Shown here in pieces: positions 10,006 to 21,431 of a DNA stretch of 34,250 bases. The number at the start of each line of letters is the position of its first letter. Positions within the stretch are counted from its first letter, which is position 1. The stretch comes from Comamonadaceae bacterium (GTDB lineage Bacteria > Pseudomonadota > Gammaproteobacteria > Burkholderiales > Burkholderiaceae_C). The DNA lies in assembly GCA_947451565.1 (NCBI GenBank), contig CANFZT010000006.1, positions 1-34,250 on the forward strand. Reading direction: 5' to 3'. Both the position numbers and the translations under genes were made by a program. The notes under the pieces are model-generated. The model searched no databases. It worked only from the letters and a program-made list of their open reading frames with translations, and was not told where the DNA came from.

Positions 10006-11139
10006 ATGACCACACACAACTCTTCTTCGCTCCAACTGCCAGAGCCGCCCGCTTTGTTAGGCCCGAAAGCTTGGATGCTTTTTTTGGCAGCGTTCATCAC
10101 CGTGTGCGCCGTTGTGCCTGTGCTCAACCTGTGGGTACCCGCAGGCAGCGTGTTCCACATGAGCGACTACGCCGTGGCCTTGGTGGGCAAGATCATGTGC
10201 TATGCCATCTGCGCTTTGGCGATGGATTTGATTTGGGGCTACACCGGTATCTTGTCGCTGGGCCACGGTTTGTTCTTTGCGCTGGGTGGCTATGTGATGG
10301 GCATGTACCTCATGCGCCAGATCGGCACCGACGGCAACTACAAAAGCAACTTGCCAGACTTCATGGTGTTTCTCGATTGGAAAACCTTGCCTTGGCATTG
10401 GACGTTCAGCGACAGCTTCCTTGCCACGCTGTTGCTCATCGTGTTGGTGCCCGGTGTGTTGGCCTTGGTATTTGGCTACTTCGCGTTTCGCTCGCGCATC
10501 AAGGGCGTGTACTTCTCCATCATCACGCAGGCCATGACGTTTGCCGCCATGCTGCTGTTCTTTCGTAACGAAACGGGCTTTGGTGGCAACAACGGCTTCA
10601 CAGACTTCAAACGCATCTTGGACTTGCCCATTGCCACCCCCGCCATGCGCATGACCTTGTTTGTGCTGACGGGCTGGGCGCTGTTGATGAGCTTTTTGTT
10701 TGCCCGCTGGTTGGTACAAAGCAAGTTTGGCCGCGTCCTGCAAGCCATTCGCGACGCAGAAAGCCGCGTGATGTTTTCGGGCTACTCACCCCTGCCCTAC
10801 AAGCTGACCATCTGGGTCATCTCTGCGGTGATGTGCGGCATTGCCGGCGCTTTGTATGTGCCACAAGTGGGCATCATCAACCCCAGCGAAATGAGCCCTG
10901 CCAACTCGATTGAGATGGCGGTGTGGGCCGCTGTGGGTGGCCGTGCGTCGCTGATTGGTCCCATCGTCGGTGCGTTCTTGGTCAACGGCATGAAGAGCTG
11001 GTTGACCGTGACGGCACCTGAGTTTTGGTTGTATTTCTTAGGTGCTTTGTTCATCGGCGTGACGCTCTACATGCCGCAAGGCGTGGTGGGCTTGCTACAA
11101 AAACTCAGCACCAAGCCAAAAGCAGAGGAGCGCGTATGA
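10006..11139 (+). CDS. urtC: Urea ABC transporter permease UrtC
   Basis: LIV-M-like permease; LIWGYTGILSLGHGLFFALGGYVMGMYLMRQIGTDGNY. Confidence 0.95.
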   Translation: MTTHNSSSLQLPEPPALLGPKAWMLFLAAFITVCAVVPVLNLWVPAGSVFHMSDYAVALVGKIMCYAICALAMDLIWGYTGILSLGHGLFFALGGYVMGMYLMRQIGTDGNYKSNLPDFMVFLDWKTLPWHWTFSDSFLATLLLIVLVPGVLALVFGYFAFRSRIKGVYFSIITQAMTFAAMLLFFRNETGFGGNNGFTDFKRILDLPIATPAMRMTLFVLTGWALLMSFLFARWLVQSKFGRVLQAIRDAESRVMFSGYSPLPYKLTIWVISAVMCGIAGALYVPQVGIINPSEMSPANSIEMAVWAAVGGRASLIGPIVGAFLVNGMKSWLTVTAPEFWLYFLGALFIGVTLYMPQGVVGLLQKLSTKPKAEERV

Positions 11140-17557: not shown

Positions 17558-17584
17558 GCGCATTGAGTCACCTCTTCTCTATCA

Positions 17585-17613
17585 ACGCACGATCTCATCC
17601 ATCGTGCGTTTTT
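17585..17613 (+). terminator. Rho-independent terminator downstream of panD
   Basis: ACGCACGAT-CTCATCC-ATCGTGCGT then TTTTT. Confidence 0.85.
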
Positions 17614-17632: not shown

Positions 17633-17687
17633 GCATTGGTTCTAGAGCGTATTTGTTATTGAATTGATGCATCAGTGAAACTACGAT
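17633..17687 (+). promoter_or_regulatory. Promoter/operator element copy 1
   Basis: GCATTGGTTCTAGAGC...TTGAAT-N17-TACGAT; 40/55 ungapped identity to 18080-18134. Confidence 0.6.
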
Positions 17688-17715
17688 TTTGGTTGTTCTT
17701 CATTCAACCATTCAC

Positions 17716-17874
17716 ATGAGATTCGCCATCGTTACCTCTTCGATTTCAGTGGTCCTTATCACTTTCGTTAGCGCACTTTCTATCGCTGTTCTTTCTTGGA
17801 TTTATCCAGCCGTTCAAAGCTACGAACCTAACTCCGATTTGAAAACAGAAATTTCTTGGGGCCAGGGTAGCTAA
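17716..17874 (+). CDS. Small membrane protein (52 aa), tail EISWGQGS
   Basis: MRFAIVTSSISVVLITFVSALSIAVLSWIYPAVQSYEPNSDLKTEISWGQGS: one hydrophobic segment, own promoter-like element, tail shared with next ORF. Confidence 0.6.
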   Translation: MRFAIVTSSISVVLITFVSALSIAVLSWIYPAVQSYEPNSDLKTEISWGQGS

Positions 17875-17877
17875 GCC

Positions 17878-18060
17878 ATGCGACCAAGTTTGATCATCGC
17901 ATTGCTTCTTTCTATCGGAAGCATCAGCACCGCAGCGGTGCTTTTTTGGGATGGCTCGCCAAAATCATCGAGTAAAAGAACGGCACCGCCGCTTTCTGTA
18001 GAGATCAAATGGGGCGAAGGCTCTGAAGCCGGCTTGCCTGATGCTGCGATTCACAAATAA
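17878..18060 (+). CDS. Small membrane protein (60 aa), motif EIKWGEGS
   Basis: MRPSLIIALLLSIGSISTAAVLFWDGSPKSSSKRTAPPLSVEIKWGEGSEAGLPDAAIHK; AVLxW...EIxWGxGS shared with preceding ORF. Confidence 0.55.
   Translation: MRPSLIIALLLSIGSISTAAVLFWDGSPKSSSKRTAPPLSVEIKWGEGSEAGLPDAAIHK
17926..17947 (+). terminator. Terminator-like hairpin inside the second small ORF
   Basis: AGCACC-GCAGC-GGTGCT followed by a T run (TTTTTT overlapping the stem end). Confidence 0.6.
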
Positions 18061-18079
18061 AAACGTTCACGCTTCTAGT

Positions 18080-18134
18080 GCATTTGTTCTAGAGCAAATT
18101 TTCTATTGAGTCGCTGAATAGCTGTCACTACCAT
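18080..18134 (+). promoter_or_regulatory. Promoter/operator element copy 2
   Basis: GCATTTGTTCTAGAGC...TTGAGT-N17-TACCAT; identical TTCTAGAGC-to-TTGA offset as copy 1. Confidence 0.6.
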
Positions 18135-18168
18135 CAAAGATCTATTAAATTTTCGGTCACGTTTGGAT

Positions 18169-18516
18169 ATGAATAAAGTACACGCCATCAGCGACAACCT
18201 GAACTACTTGATGCGTTTGCTTATCAGCATCGCCTTGCTTTCTAGTGCTGTTGCTTGGGCGGCAAAGACTGAAAGAATGAAAACGGAACTGGGCAATGAT
18301 GAAGCAACATTTTTATTGACAGGGACGTGTCAAAACGGTGAGCCTTATCGACTGTTTTCATATCAGAAGCGTACCGGCGGTTTGTCTCAGTCGTACTATG
18401 ACTACGAAGGACCTGCTGGCAAAGGTTCGGTTCGATCGGACACCTACCCCAAAGTGATGGCGGTGAGAGTTTGTCGCAAACTGGCGGAAATCATCAACGC
18501 CAACTATTGGGAATGA
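18169..18516 (+). CDS. Orphan exported/membrane-anchored small protein
   Basis: Hydrophobic LMRLLISIALLSSAVAWAA then soluble domain with two Cys (TGTCQNG, VRVCRK). Confidence 0.65.
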   Translation: MNKVHAISDNLNYLMRLLISIALLSSAVAWAAKTERMKTELGNDEATFLLTGTCQNGEPYRLFSYQKRTGGLSQSYYDYEGPAGKGSVRSDTYPKVMAVRVCRKLAEIINANYWE

Positions 18517-18523
18517 TGCAGAG

Positions 18524-18892
18524 ATGTTTCATTTGTCAATTGAATACAACTCTTCGAACAGGCCGACAAGCAATCGGCTGGAGCATCCATTGCTAGAGGT
18601 TTTAGAAAGTGTCTACGAATCAGGCTCTATCGGCAAGGCTGCCAAACAACTGGGTCGCTCTTATCGTCATGTTTGGGGCGAACTGAAGCACTGGGAATCA
18701 ACACTGAATACAAACCTAATTGTTTGGGGAAGAAACGGCAAGGGGGCCGAGCTGACACCGCAAGCCATTGAATTCCTAGACGCTGTTTCTAAAATCCAAG
18801 TGGATTTAGCGCCCCAATTTGCGCATATCAAGAATTGCCTCCAGCAATGCGTTACCGTTTTGCAAGCGACCAGCGCACCGCACCACACTTAA
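18524..18892 (+). CDS. Stand-alone winged HTH protein, ModE N-terminal/LysR-like
   Basis: LLEVLESVYESGSIGKAAKQLGRSYRHVWGELKHWESTLNTNLIVWGRNGKGAELTPQAIEFLDA resembles ModE DNA-binding domain; no ligand-binding domain follows. Confidence 0.75.
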   Translation: MFHLSIEYNSSNRPTSNRLEHPLLEVLESVYESGSIGKAAKQLGRSYRHVWGELKHWESTLNTNLIVWGRNGKGAELTPQAIEFLDAVSKIQVDLAPQFAHIKNCLQQCVTVLQATSAPHHT

Positions 18893-18965
18893 TATGAATG
18901 CACTATTTTTGGTTACTTTCTAATGCAATCTGCGGCTTCATGACGCATCTGTAACTAAAGTTTAA

Positions 18966-18994
18966 TTGATGCAATAGCGACGCGTCAGTACGAT
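18966..18994 (+). promoter_or_regulatory. Third TTGA-N17-type promoter-like element upstream of response regulator
   Basis: TTGATG-N17-TACGAT; dyad GTCAGT-N6-ACTGAC (18984-19001) overlaps the -10. Confidence 0.4.
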
Positions 18995-19003
18995 CACTGA
19001 CAC

Positions 19004-19630
19004 ATGAATGCCATCATTAAAAAATCCCTCCTCATCATTGATGACCACCCTGTTTATCGTGATGCGTTGGGTGAAAAATTGACGCTTGAATTTATAGATG
19101 ATGGGGTCGAAGTTGCCGTGGCAAGCAGCGCCAACGAAGGCCTAGAACTTATTGAAAACACAGACAAACACTGGATCGTTTTGCTGGACATTTTGATGCC
19201 CGGACTTAGTGGTTTAGCCGGCATCAAAGTTTTTAAAGACTTACACAATGTTCAACAAGTTGTAGCGATTTCTGGACTTGACGAGCACGCTTGGGAGCCC
19301 AAAACAGCTTCTGCAGGAGCTTCGATGTTTTTGTCGAAAAATAACACTGCCGAATTTATTATTCGCAAGTTAAAGCCGCTGCTAGCCCTTCAAACTGACT
19401 ACGTCGCGAAAACTGAAAATGTAGAACCTAAAGAGTTTCGACTCACGCAACGGCAGAGAGAAGTTCTTGATTTAATTTCGCAAGGTCACCCGAATAAATT
19501 GATTGCCGACTTCTTAGACATCAGCGAACAAACCGTCAAAATTCACATCAATCAAATATTCAAAGAGCTACGAGTTTTTAACAGGACTCAAGCTGTGCTT
19601 AAAGCACAAAAGCATCAACTGCTGTCGTGA
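19004..19630 (+). CDS. NarL/LuxR-type response regulator
   Basis: REC SLLIIDDHPVYRD...VLLDILMPGLSG; HTH LTQRQREVLDLISQGHPNKLIADFLDISEQTVKIHINQIFKEL. Confidence 0.95.
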   Translation: MNAIIKKSLLIIDDHPVYRDALGEKLTLEFIDDGVEVAVASSANEGLELIENTDKHWIVLLDILMPGLSGLAGIKVFKDLHNVQQVVAISGLDEHAWEPKTASAGASMFLSKNNTAEFIIRKLKPLLALQTDYVAKTENVEPKEFRLTQRQREVLDLISQGHPNKLIADFLDISEQTVKIHINQIFKELRVFNRTQAVLKAQKHQLLS

Positions 19631-21393
19631 GAATTGAATTGATGGCGAACGAGATCAACAACGTCTATCTGCTACGAGAGAAATCAGCGCATATCACCAA
19701 GGCTGCGCGCTCAGCCACAGTCGCCAATTTATTGGCGCCTATGCTTTGCATTCCGATGTTCAAGGATGAAGTCCAACCCTTGAATTTAGCCATCTGGCTA
19801 GGCTATATGTTCATTGCCGTGTTCATTCGTACGTGGATGATTTTTCAGTTAGCGCATGAAGCTGAAAAAATTCTCGACCCCGAACGTCATTTAAAAGTCA
19901 TGACCTATGCCGTTGGTATGGTTGGTTTTGGCTGGGGCTTAGGTTGGGTTTTGATGGCGCCAGATTTGTTGATGGTGAATCGGATGATTTATGTGTACAT
20001 GACAACGGCTGCGATGATTTCGAGCATGTTTGCATACAGCGTGAACACGGCAACATTTTTTGCGTTCACGTTGCCAATCATGATTCCTTCATTGAGTACG
20101 GTTCTATGGTCCGTCAATATTTTTCCATGGCCATTTACTGTCGGTCTGGCATCGCTTTACATCGTCGTGCTTAGCATTGCGAAAAACTTCGCCAAGACTT
20201 TTGAAGATTCTGTGCGACTTAGATTTCGCAACGAACATTTGTATCAAGAGTTAGCGGCGGAACGCGATCAATCCGTTGCTGCGAATGTGGCCAAATCGAA
20301 GTTCATTGCGGTTGCAAGCCATGATTTGCGACAACCCATGCATGCCGTTAACGTCTATTTAGAACTGGTTAACTTGGACAACTTGCCAACGGTTGAAAAA
20401 AAATCGCTGTCAAAAATTAAAAGCAGCATCACCACCCTGAACGCGATGTTTGACTCGCTCCTGAACATCAGCAAACTAGATGCCGATGCCATGCAAGTCA
20501 ATCATCGTGTCTTTCGTTTGGATGACCTCGCAACTACGATTCGCGATCTCACAGAGGCCAAAGCAACAAGCAAAGGCTTGATCTTTAATGTGACTCATGC
20601 CGACTTTTTAGTGCGCGGGGACAAACTACTGCTTCAACAAATCATCACCAATCTCGCCTCAAATGCTATTCAATACACAGAACATGGACAAGTGGACGTG
20701 CGCTTCGAATCTGAGCACGATTGCTTGACCATTGAAGTGAGCGATACAGGGTGCGGGATAGCAGAATCAGAACAACAGCACATCTTCAATCAGTTCTACC
20801 GAGCAGACAAAACGCGAGCATTGCATGATGGACTAGGGTTAGGGCTGTCTATCGTTCAACGTTTATGCAATCTCATAGGTGCCGACGTTCGTGTGGTATC
20901 AACACCGGAGAGAGGTACAAAGTTCATCATCACGACGTCTTTCCCAATCTCAGCGAATGCAGAAAAAATTTATCCTTTACAGCAAGTGGTGCAAAAACCG
21001 TATGGTTCACATCGAACCCTTCAGGGCAAATACATTGCGGTGATTGAAGACAACCCCATCATTGTTGAGGCATATAGGCAAACACTAGCCAACAAAGGCG
21101 CATACGTTGAAGTGCTATCAGAGTACCCGGACGAACTGGCGCTGCAGCTTGCAACCATCGACCGGATTGACTGCATCTTGAGTGATTACCGACTGAGTCA
21201 AACCACAGGTGATGTGCTGATACAAAAGCTCAGAGATAACTACAACGAAGAAATACCCGCCATCATCGTCACAGCAGATACGTCACCGTCTCACATCAAT
21301 TTATTTGCTCAGTTAAATGTACAAGTGCTGCACAAGCCAATTAGTTTTCATGATGTCGCTGCAACCATTGAAAAAATCACAGCACCTAAATAA
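19627..21393 (+). CDS. Hybrid membrane sensor histidine kinase with C-terminal receiver (GTG 19627 or ATG 19642)
   Basis: About six TM segments, H-box ASHDLRQPMHAVN, N/G boxes NLASNAIQYTEHG, DTGCGIAESEQQHIFNQFYRAD, REC IAVIEDNPII...CILSDYRLS...LHKPIS. Confidence 0.95.
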   Translation: MRIELMANEINNVYLLREKSAHITKAARSATVANLLAPMLCIPMFKDEVQPLNLAIWLGYMFIAVFIRTWMIFQLAHEAEKILDPERHLKVMTYAVGMVGFGWGLGWVLMAPDLLMVNRMIYVYMTTAAMISSMFAYSVNTATFFAFTLPIMIPSLSTVLWSVNIFPWPFTVGLASLYIVVLSIAKNFAKTFEDSVRLRFRNEHLYQELAAERDQSVAANVAKSKFIAVASHDLRQPMHAVNVYLELVNLDNLPTVEKKSLSKIKSSITTLNAMFDSLLNISKLDADAMQVNHRVFRLDDLATTIRDLTEAKATSKGLIFNVTHADFLVRGDKLLLQQIITNLASNAIQYTEHGQVDVRFESEHDCLTIEVSDTGCGIAESEQQHIFNQFYRADKTRALHDGLGLGLSIVQRLCNLIGADVRVVSTPERGTKFIITTSFPISANAEKIYPLQQVVQKPYGSHRTLQGKYIAVIEDNPIIVEAYRQTLANKGAYVEVLSEYPDELALQLATIDRIDCILSDYRLSQTTGDVLIQKLRDNYNEEIPAIIVTADTSPSHINLFAQLNVQVLHKPISFHDVAATIEKITAPK

Positions 21394-21396
21394 CAA

Positions 21397-21431
21397 AGAG
21401 GCCCGCTCATTTTTAGGCGGGCCTCTTATTT
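21397..21431. terminator. Rho-independent terminator, possibly bidirectional
   Basis: AGAGGCCCGC-N10-GCGGGCCTCT then TATTTTT. Confidence 0.92.

Follow-up and report, generated by a model that had tools for sequence, protein, structure and literature searches.

What do two tiny membrane peptides and a small exported protein do beside a hybrid histidine kinase and a response regulator? Although small membrane proteins and small exported proteins are common, few are assigned a function, and the question is raised here by a block at positions 17633-21426 of a 34,250-nucleotide stretch (called the window) of contig CANFZT010000006.1 from a Comamonadaceae bacterium. The block lies between panD and the yceI genes and consists of six co-directional genes, all on the + strand, with terminator-like hairpins on both sides. 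The genes are referred to as pepA, pepB, exp, HTH (a stand-alone helix-turn-helix protein), RR (the response regulator) and HK (the histidine kinase). From sequence comparison, we lean slightly towards the reading that they encode an autoregulated, lineage-restricted and self-contained two-component circuit, whose small envelope-protein outputs feed back on the kinase. This would tie three new small-protein families to one HK/RR pair by a sharply conserved promoter element, called operator A. A preliminary description of this DNA had proposed an undescribed small-peptide/two-component module; the proposal fits, because the small genes are conserved beside RR and HK and operator A is confined to genomes with this RR.

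In the following, G numbers denote genomes and L numbers denote loci. The genus set contains 84 genomes, and the family sample contains 401 genomes from 141 genera. The ratio of nonsynonymous to synonymous substitution rates is written dN/dS. The features of the block are listed below.

17584..17610, + strand: intrinsic terminator of panD, left border; hairpin of 10 pairs, then a T tract
17638..17662, + strand: operator A copy 1, GGTTCTAGAGCGTATTTGTTATTGA; identical in G042, G101, G033, G114, G052 and L. radicicola
17716..17874, + strand: pepA, membrane peptide of 52 aa with tail EISWGQGS; 7 orthologues and dN/dS
17878..18060, + strand: pepB, membrane peptide of 60 aa containing EIKWGEGSEAG; pepA paralogue by hidden Markov model (HMM) cross-hits, fused to exp in L031 and L057
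18085..18109, + strand: operator A copy 2, upstream of exp, TGTTCTAGAGCAAATTTTCTATTGA; -10 box TACCAT at 18129-18134
18169..18516, + strand: exp, small exported protein with invariant Cys54 and Cys102 (26-sequence alignment)
18524..18892, + strand: HTH, stand-alone winged helix-turn-helix protein of the LysR/ModE N-terminal domain type, an optional member; Pfam HTH_1, 6e-11
18949..18969, + strand: operator B, upstream of RR, CTGTAACTAAAGTTTAATTGA; similar sites at about 24 loci of the RR clade
19004..19630, + strand: RR, response regulator with REC and LuxR/NarL-type helix-turn-helix domains (Pfam)
19627..21393, + strand: HK, hybrid histidine kinase with a six-helix membrane sensor, HisKA, HATPase_c and REC (Pfam; sensor model)
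21396..21427, + strand: intrinsic terminator, right border; hairpin of 12 pairs, then a T tract

The two bounding terminators and the single coding strand had been pointed out in the preliminary description and were recovered here. Its remark that the block is AT-richer than its surroundings was borne out by computation, with a GC content of 45.0% against 57.2% in the left flank and 53.5% in the right flank. The Rfam search gave no match.

Operators A and B

The direct repeats at 17633-17687 and 18080-18134, which are 73% identical, are two copies of one promoter element that is conserved across two genera. The preliminary description does not mention them, although the block as it was drawn there starts with the first repeat. 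Operator A occupies 25 bp of it. In copy 1, the final TTGA opens the -35 box TTGAAT (17659-17664), which is followed by a 17-bp spacer and the -10 box TACGAT (17682-17687), and the leave-one-out position weight matrix (PWM) score is 66. Copy 2 has two mismatches to the pattern and scores 53.5 in the leave-one-out evaluation and 60.4 with the full matrix. The leave-one-out scores of all operator A sites range from 23 to 66, while none of the shuffled loci exceeds 5. In 23 of the 25 collected sites, the -10 box is TANNAT at a constant distance, and the other two have TCTAAT. We also considered that the repeats are mobile-element ends, which is ruled out by the fixed -10 spacing and by the module gene that follows the collected sites in the direction of the promoter.

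Operator A is found upstream of pepA (of pepB in loci that have lost pepA), of exp, of HTH in L032 and L033, and of a further small exported protein of MQFN type in L033 and L082; the per-locus maximum is found in G033, with four sites within 1.4 kb. In a permissive search of the genus set, 20 of the 22 matches were located at module loci, the remaining two were weak with 3 mismatches, and control matches were zero. In the family sample, the element was found in the same 2 of the 141 genera only. All 15 operator-A genomes of the genus set have the RR clade, which is present in 27 of the 84 (hypergeometric 1e-9, not corrected for phylogeny). Linkage alone is insufficient to account for this co-occurrence, because in G050 operator A stands with pepA and pepB at panD (L058), with RR/HK some 660 kb distant (L034). 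The element is kept with 0 mismatches across species whose RR is 62-85% alike to that of the window, as well as in L. radicicola of the second genus. At operator-A loci the RR helix-turn-helix region TVKIHINQIFKELRVFNRTQA is nearly invariant, with whole-RR identity down to 62%. RR is therefore the best candidate for the binder of operator A, given the co-occurrence in 15 of 15 genomes, the separation in G050, the near-invariance of this region and the absence of HTH from several element-bearing genomes (see below). The overlap between operator A and the -35 box fits activation from a class II-like position, which is more likely than repression.

Three further sites were observed. In L082, two operator A copies (10338-10362 and 10325-10349) lie head to head and share a single TCTAGA palindrome in their overlap, an arrangement that suggests a symmetric core GGTTCTAGAACC. 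G050 has a second, paralogous RR/HK pair, whose RR is immediately preceded by a weak operator-A-like site (L039 6309, minus strand). In G051, an operator-A-like sequence with 6 mismatches precedes a small unrelated open reading frame (ORF) (L040 11397, minus strand).

Operator B has the general form CTACAACCWAAGTTTMRTTGA with a TAGCAT-like -10 box. In the window, the RR promoter has the -10 box TACGAT at 18989-18994 and the ATG follows 9 nt later. Since the RR ATG lies 9-10 nt past a conserved -10 box at most RR loci, the RR mRNA is predicted to be leaderless or nearly so, and this is probably a conserved property. The reverse complement of operator B has TTRGGTTsTAG in common with operator A (column-permutation value 0.003, dependent on the permutation model, also without the -35 part). 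Genus-wide, matches with 0-1 mismatch to operator B occur at RR only, and matches with 2 mismatches are RR sites or otherwise at control level, which rules out a wide operator B regulon. The simplest reading of these sites is autoregulation of RR through operator B.

Two-component and small proteins

HK and RR are ordinary families. All of their domains were detected above the Pfam gathering cut-offs, i.e. HisKA, HATPase_c and REC (Response_reg) in HK, and REC with GerE in RR, and the start of HK overlaps the end of RR by 4 bp, just as the preliminary description had it in naming a LuxR-type regulator and an overlapping hybrid kinase. The two genes are adjacent or overlapping and are kept together at most loci. 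The catalytic part of HK resembles the NahK/ErcS-type hybrid kinases that go with NarL-type regulators, NCBIfam NF041832 being its best match (E 1e-72), but its 244.8 bits are below the cut-off of 400, so that HK is not assigned to this family, and its sensor consists of six membrane helices. The model of this sensor (pLDDT 87.6) has no large periplasmic domain. Its closest PDB fold is the ImcA membrane domain (8wcn), with E 0.66 and TM 0.58, which is not significant by E-value. A literature search following this weak match found nothing, and one on Limnohabitans two-component systems found nothing relevant.

The two tandem small membrane peptides noticed earlier are conserved paralogues, as a single profile matches both. 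Each is present at 7 loci, and the dN/dS values of the pairs are mostly 0.1-0.35 where synonymous sites are unsaturated, with a few pairs higher; judged by this codon comparison, pepA and pepB are genuine genes under purifying selection. What is invariant in their alignment, which contains no Cys, is a single hydrophobic helix plus a tail WG-x-G/S, in most cases EIxWG[EQ]GS. The predicted topology is one membrane helix with the C-terminal EIxWGxGS tail toward the periplasm. Neither belongs to a described small-protein family of Pfam or NCBIfam, where at E 1 pepA has only a weak PufQ match below cut-off and pepB has none. The single ORFs that contain PepB and Exp (L031 5228-5704 and L057 7992-7567) connect these two products. 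In G114, pepA is cut to a short remnant (MRFAIVTSVLHGAKAIN; L059, 3307 down to 2998), and operator A and pepB are intact. The pepA leader (17690-17709) has an inverted repeat GGTTGTT...TCAACC directly downstream of the -10 box, conserved in L031, L032, L033, L059 and L061, which could bind a further regulator or form a hairpin in the mRNA.

The exported protein had been called an orphan. This is right in that it matches no known family, as nothing credible was found in Pfam, PHROGs, PDB sequences or PDB folds, but it belongs to a two-cysteine family of its own that stands next to RR/HK in most relatives. The window Exp has 25 relatives, all with both cysteines, and none was found in plasmids and phages. 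It is modelled as an N-terminal helix (a predicted signal peptide) followed by four strands and a helix, with a core pLDDT above 90, and is predicted to form a small periplasmic domain with a disulfide. Exp is present in 21 of the 84 genus genomes and, in the family sample, in only 2 of the 141 genera. Exp-like proteins with no RR clade nearby were observed in L130 and L131.

PepA, PepB and Exp occur together with RR and HK in G042, G041, G033 and G101, and subsets of the module occur in G050, G114, G122, G123, G113, G116, G011 and others. The second genus has exp without pepA/pepB, with exp, RR and HK at other loci and exp often convergent to HK-RR. G050 has pepA/pepB without exp, so neither PepA/PepB nor exp is universal across loci. 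The preliminary description held that its idea would fail if the small genes were not conserved next to the kinase pair elsewhere. This did not occur, as the small peptides and Exp are conserved beside this pair.

The proposed circuit and its alternatives

In the circuit we favour, which is confined to Limnohabitans-type bacteria, HK would sense an envelope or membrane signal through its six helices and pass phosphate to the NarL-type RR. RR would then bind operator A over the -35 box of pepA-pepB, exp and, where present, HTH, most likely activating them, and would control its own promoter through operator B to give a near-leaderless mRNA; the stretch predicted to be protected by RR in both operators is GGTTCTAGA. 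PepA, PepB and Exp would most likely act in the membrane beside HK as feedback modulators, like MgrB on PhoQ and CpxP on CpxA. The promoter anatomy points to the small proteins as outputs, and we infer their modulator role from the rest: feedback is favoured over a general effector regulon because no further targets were detected, exp lies next to RR/HK and PepB-Exp fusions occur. Three points weigh against this circuit. The similarity between operators A and B is modest, L093, L122 and L124 are RR loci with exp and no recognisable operator A, and Exp-like proteins are found in a few genomes without the RR clade (G038, G029 and G012), the Exp family thus extending beyond the module. In its strictest form, the circuit would be closed, the only genome-wide targets of RR being its own gene and rapidly reshuffled tiny envelope proteins (PepA, PepB, PepB-Exp fusions, Exp and others), themselves ligands or gating subunits of the six-helix HK. 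This form we consider doubtful.

The small proteins may instead be terminal envelope effectors, e.g. stress-protection or envelope-modifying proteins, which do not act on HK. Their standing as outputs agrees with this, and so does the fact that species differ in which of these genes they have: only exp, only pepAB, the two together, or an additional small exported protein as well. However, the detected regulon consists only of these genes and RR, which suits feedback parts better, and exp is nearly fixed beside RR/HK. We regard the effector role as possible, though rather unlikely.

PepA and PepB could also be precursors of secreted peptide signals sensed by HK in an Agr-like cell-cell loop. 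AgrC-type kinases are polytopic peptide sensors, and HK likewise has a polytopic sensor, without a large extracytoplasmic domain, next to small-peptide genes with a conserved C-terminal EIxWGxGS and a positive-feedback-like promoter arrangement. On the other side, no protease or exporter gene is in the block or conserved beside it, HK is a hybrid with REC, the peptides are missing at many kinase loci, and second-genus loci hold RR, HK and exp without them. Moreover, one helix tethers the tail at its N-terminal side, and two genomes carry PepB as a fusion with Exp. A secreted signal is improbable on these grounds.

The stand-alone HTH, and not RR, might bind operator A and couple the small genes to another input. 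The protein has 122 aa and its best NCBIfam match is the ModE repressor domain (38.7 bits against a cut-off of 98.5); with the N-terminal helix-turn-helix part only and no other domain, it is not a full ModE, which also has the molybdate-binding MOP domain. It is found in 7 genus genomes, most others having only a two-domain relative of about 380 aa. The element is present in 7 of 7 of these and stands upstream of HTH in L032 and L033, but 8 of the 15 operator-A genomes lack the stand-alone HTH, including G042, G101 and G050, which are at least 96% complete, and there is little chance that this explanation is correct. As the sole binder, HTH is ruled out by the same absences. Since the three near-complete genomes keep both elements, HTH is non-essential to the module. 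In the form in which it was put, the earlier idea of the HTH protein as a second regulator on the shared promoters is not supported; the stand-alone HTH_1/ModE-like protein exists, but is optional.

That the block is random accessory cargo at a variable panD-yceI spot, with the repeats as duplication remnants and no joint function, agrees with the low GC and with the variability of the spot, but is hardly credible with the same genes and elements at unrelated loci of another genus, conserved promoter spacing and low dN/dS.

Returning to the feedback circuit, we compared it with known systems. MgrB is described as a membrane protein of 47 aa that belongs to the PhoP regulon and inhibits PhoQ (PMC8404706). 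PepA and PepB match this tiny single-helix membrane protein in size and predicted topology, and may likewise be expressed under the regulator of the neighbouring kinase, as their conserved candidate operator co-occurs with RR. They differ in matching no small-protein Pfam family, and HK, a hybrid kinase whose sensor has six helices, is not of the PhoQ type. MgrB has a periplasmic cysteine pair, whereas PepA and PepB have no such pair. CpxP is periplasmic, is expressed under CpxR and damps CpxA. Exp is similarly small and exported, behind a putative operator of its cognate regulator and beside two-component genes, but its predicted fold (four strands and a helix, with a predicted disulfide) is a different one, no homology is detectable, and the kinase architecture is another one. 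A small membrane-embedded HK sensor tuned by single-helix partners is plausible. Nothing we found describes the three families of small proteins, the pair of operators, their strictly local occurrence or a regulator mRNA that is probably leaderless. Should the feedback be true, the module would have evolved independently as a counterpart of MgrB/CpxP in freshwater bacteria of high abundance, and would give a clear example of two-component signalling in which the regulon that can be detected amounts in essence to the system's own modulators.

Genomic setting and a further exported protein

The window's genome is 77% complete. Named records with these genes are the Limnohabitans isolates JirII-31, Jir61, B9-3, L. 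radicicola, MMS-10A-192 and 15K, besides Comamonadaceae metagenome-assembled genomes, from which the source genome is inferred to be Limnohabitans-type. In culturable Limnohabitans, the module offers operators that can be tested, a defined set of targets and naturally occurring variants (with exp only, with pepAB only, or with the fusion). Most related blocks likewise exceed one flank or both in AT content. What lies between panD and yceI varies, with a LysE-type gene and no block in G105 and pepAB alone in G050. The further small exported protein, which starts with MQFNFKK or MQLNFQK, was observed in L033 (5057-5287), L082 (about 10250, minus strand), L146 (491-718) and L151 (1119-1205); it stands behind operator A in L033 and L082, and otherwise near panD/pepA.

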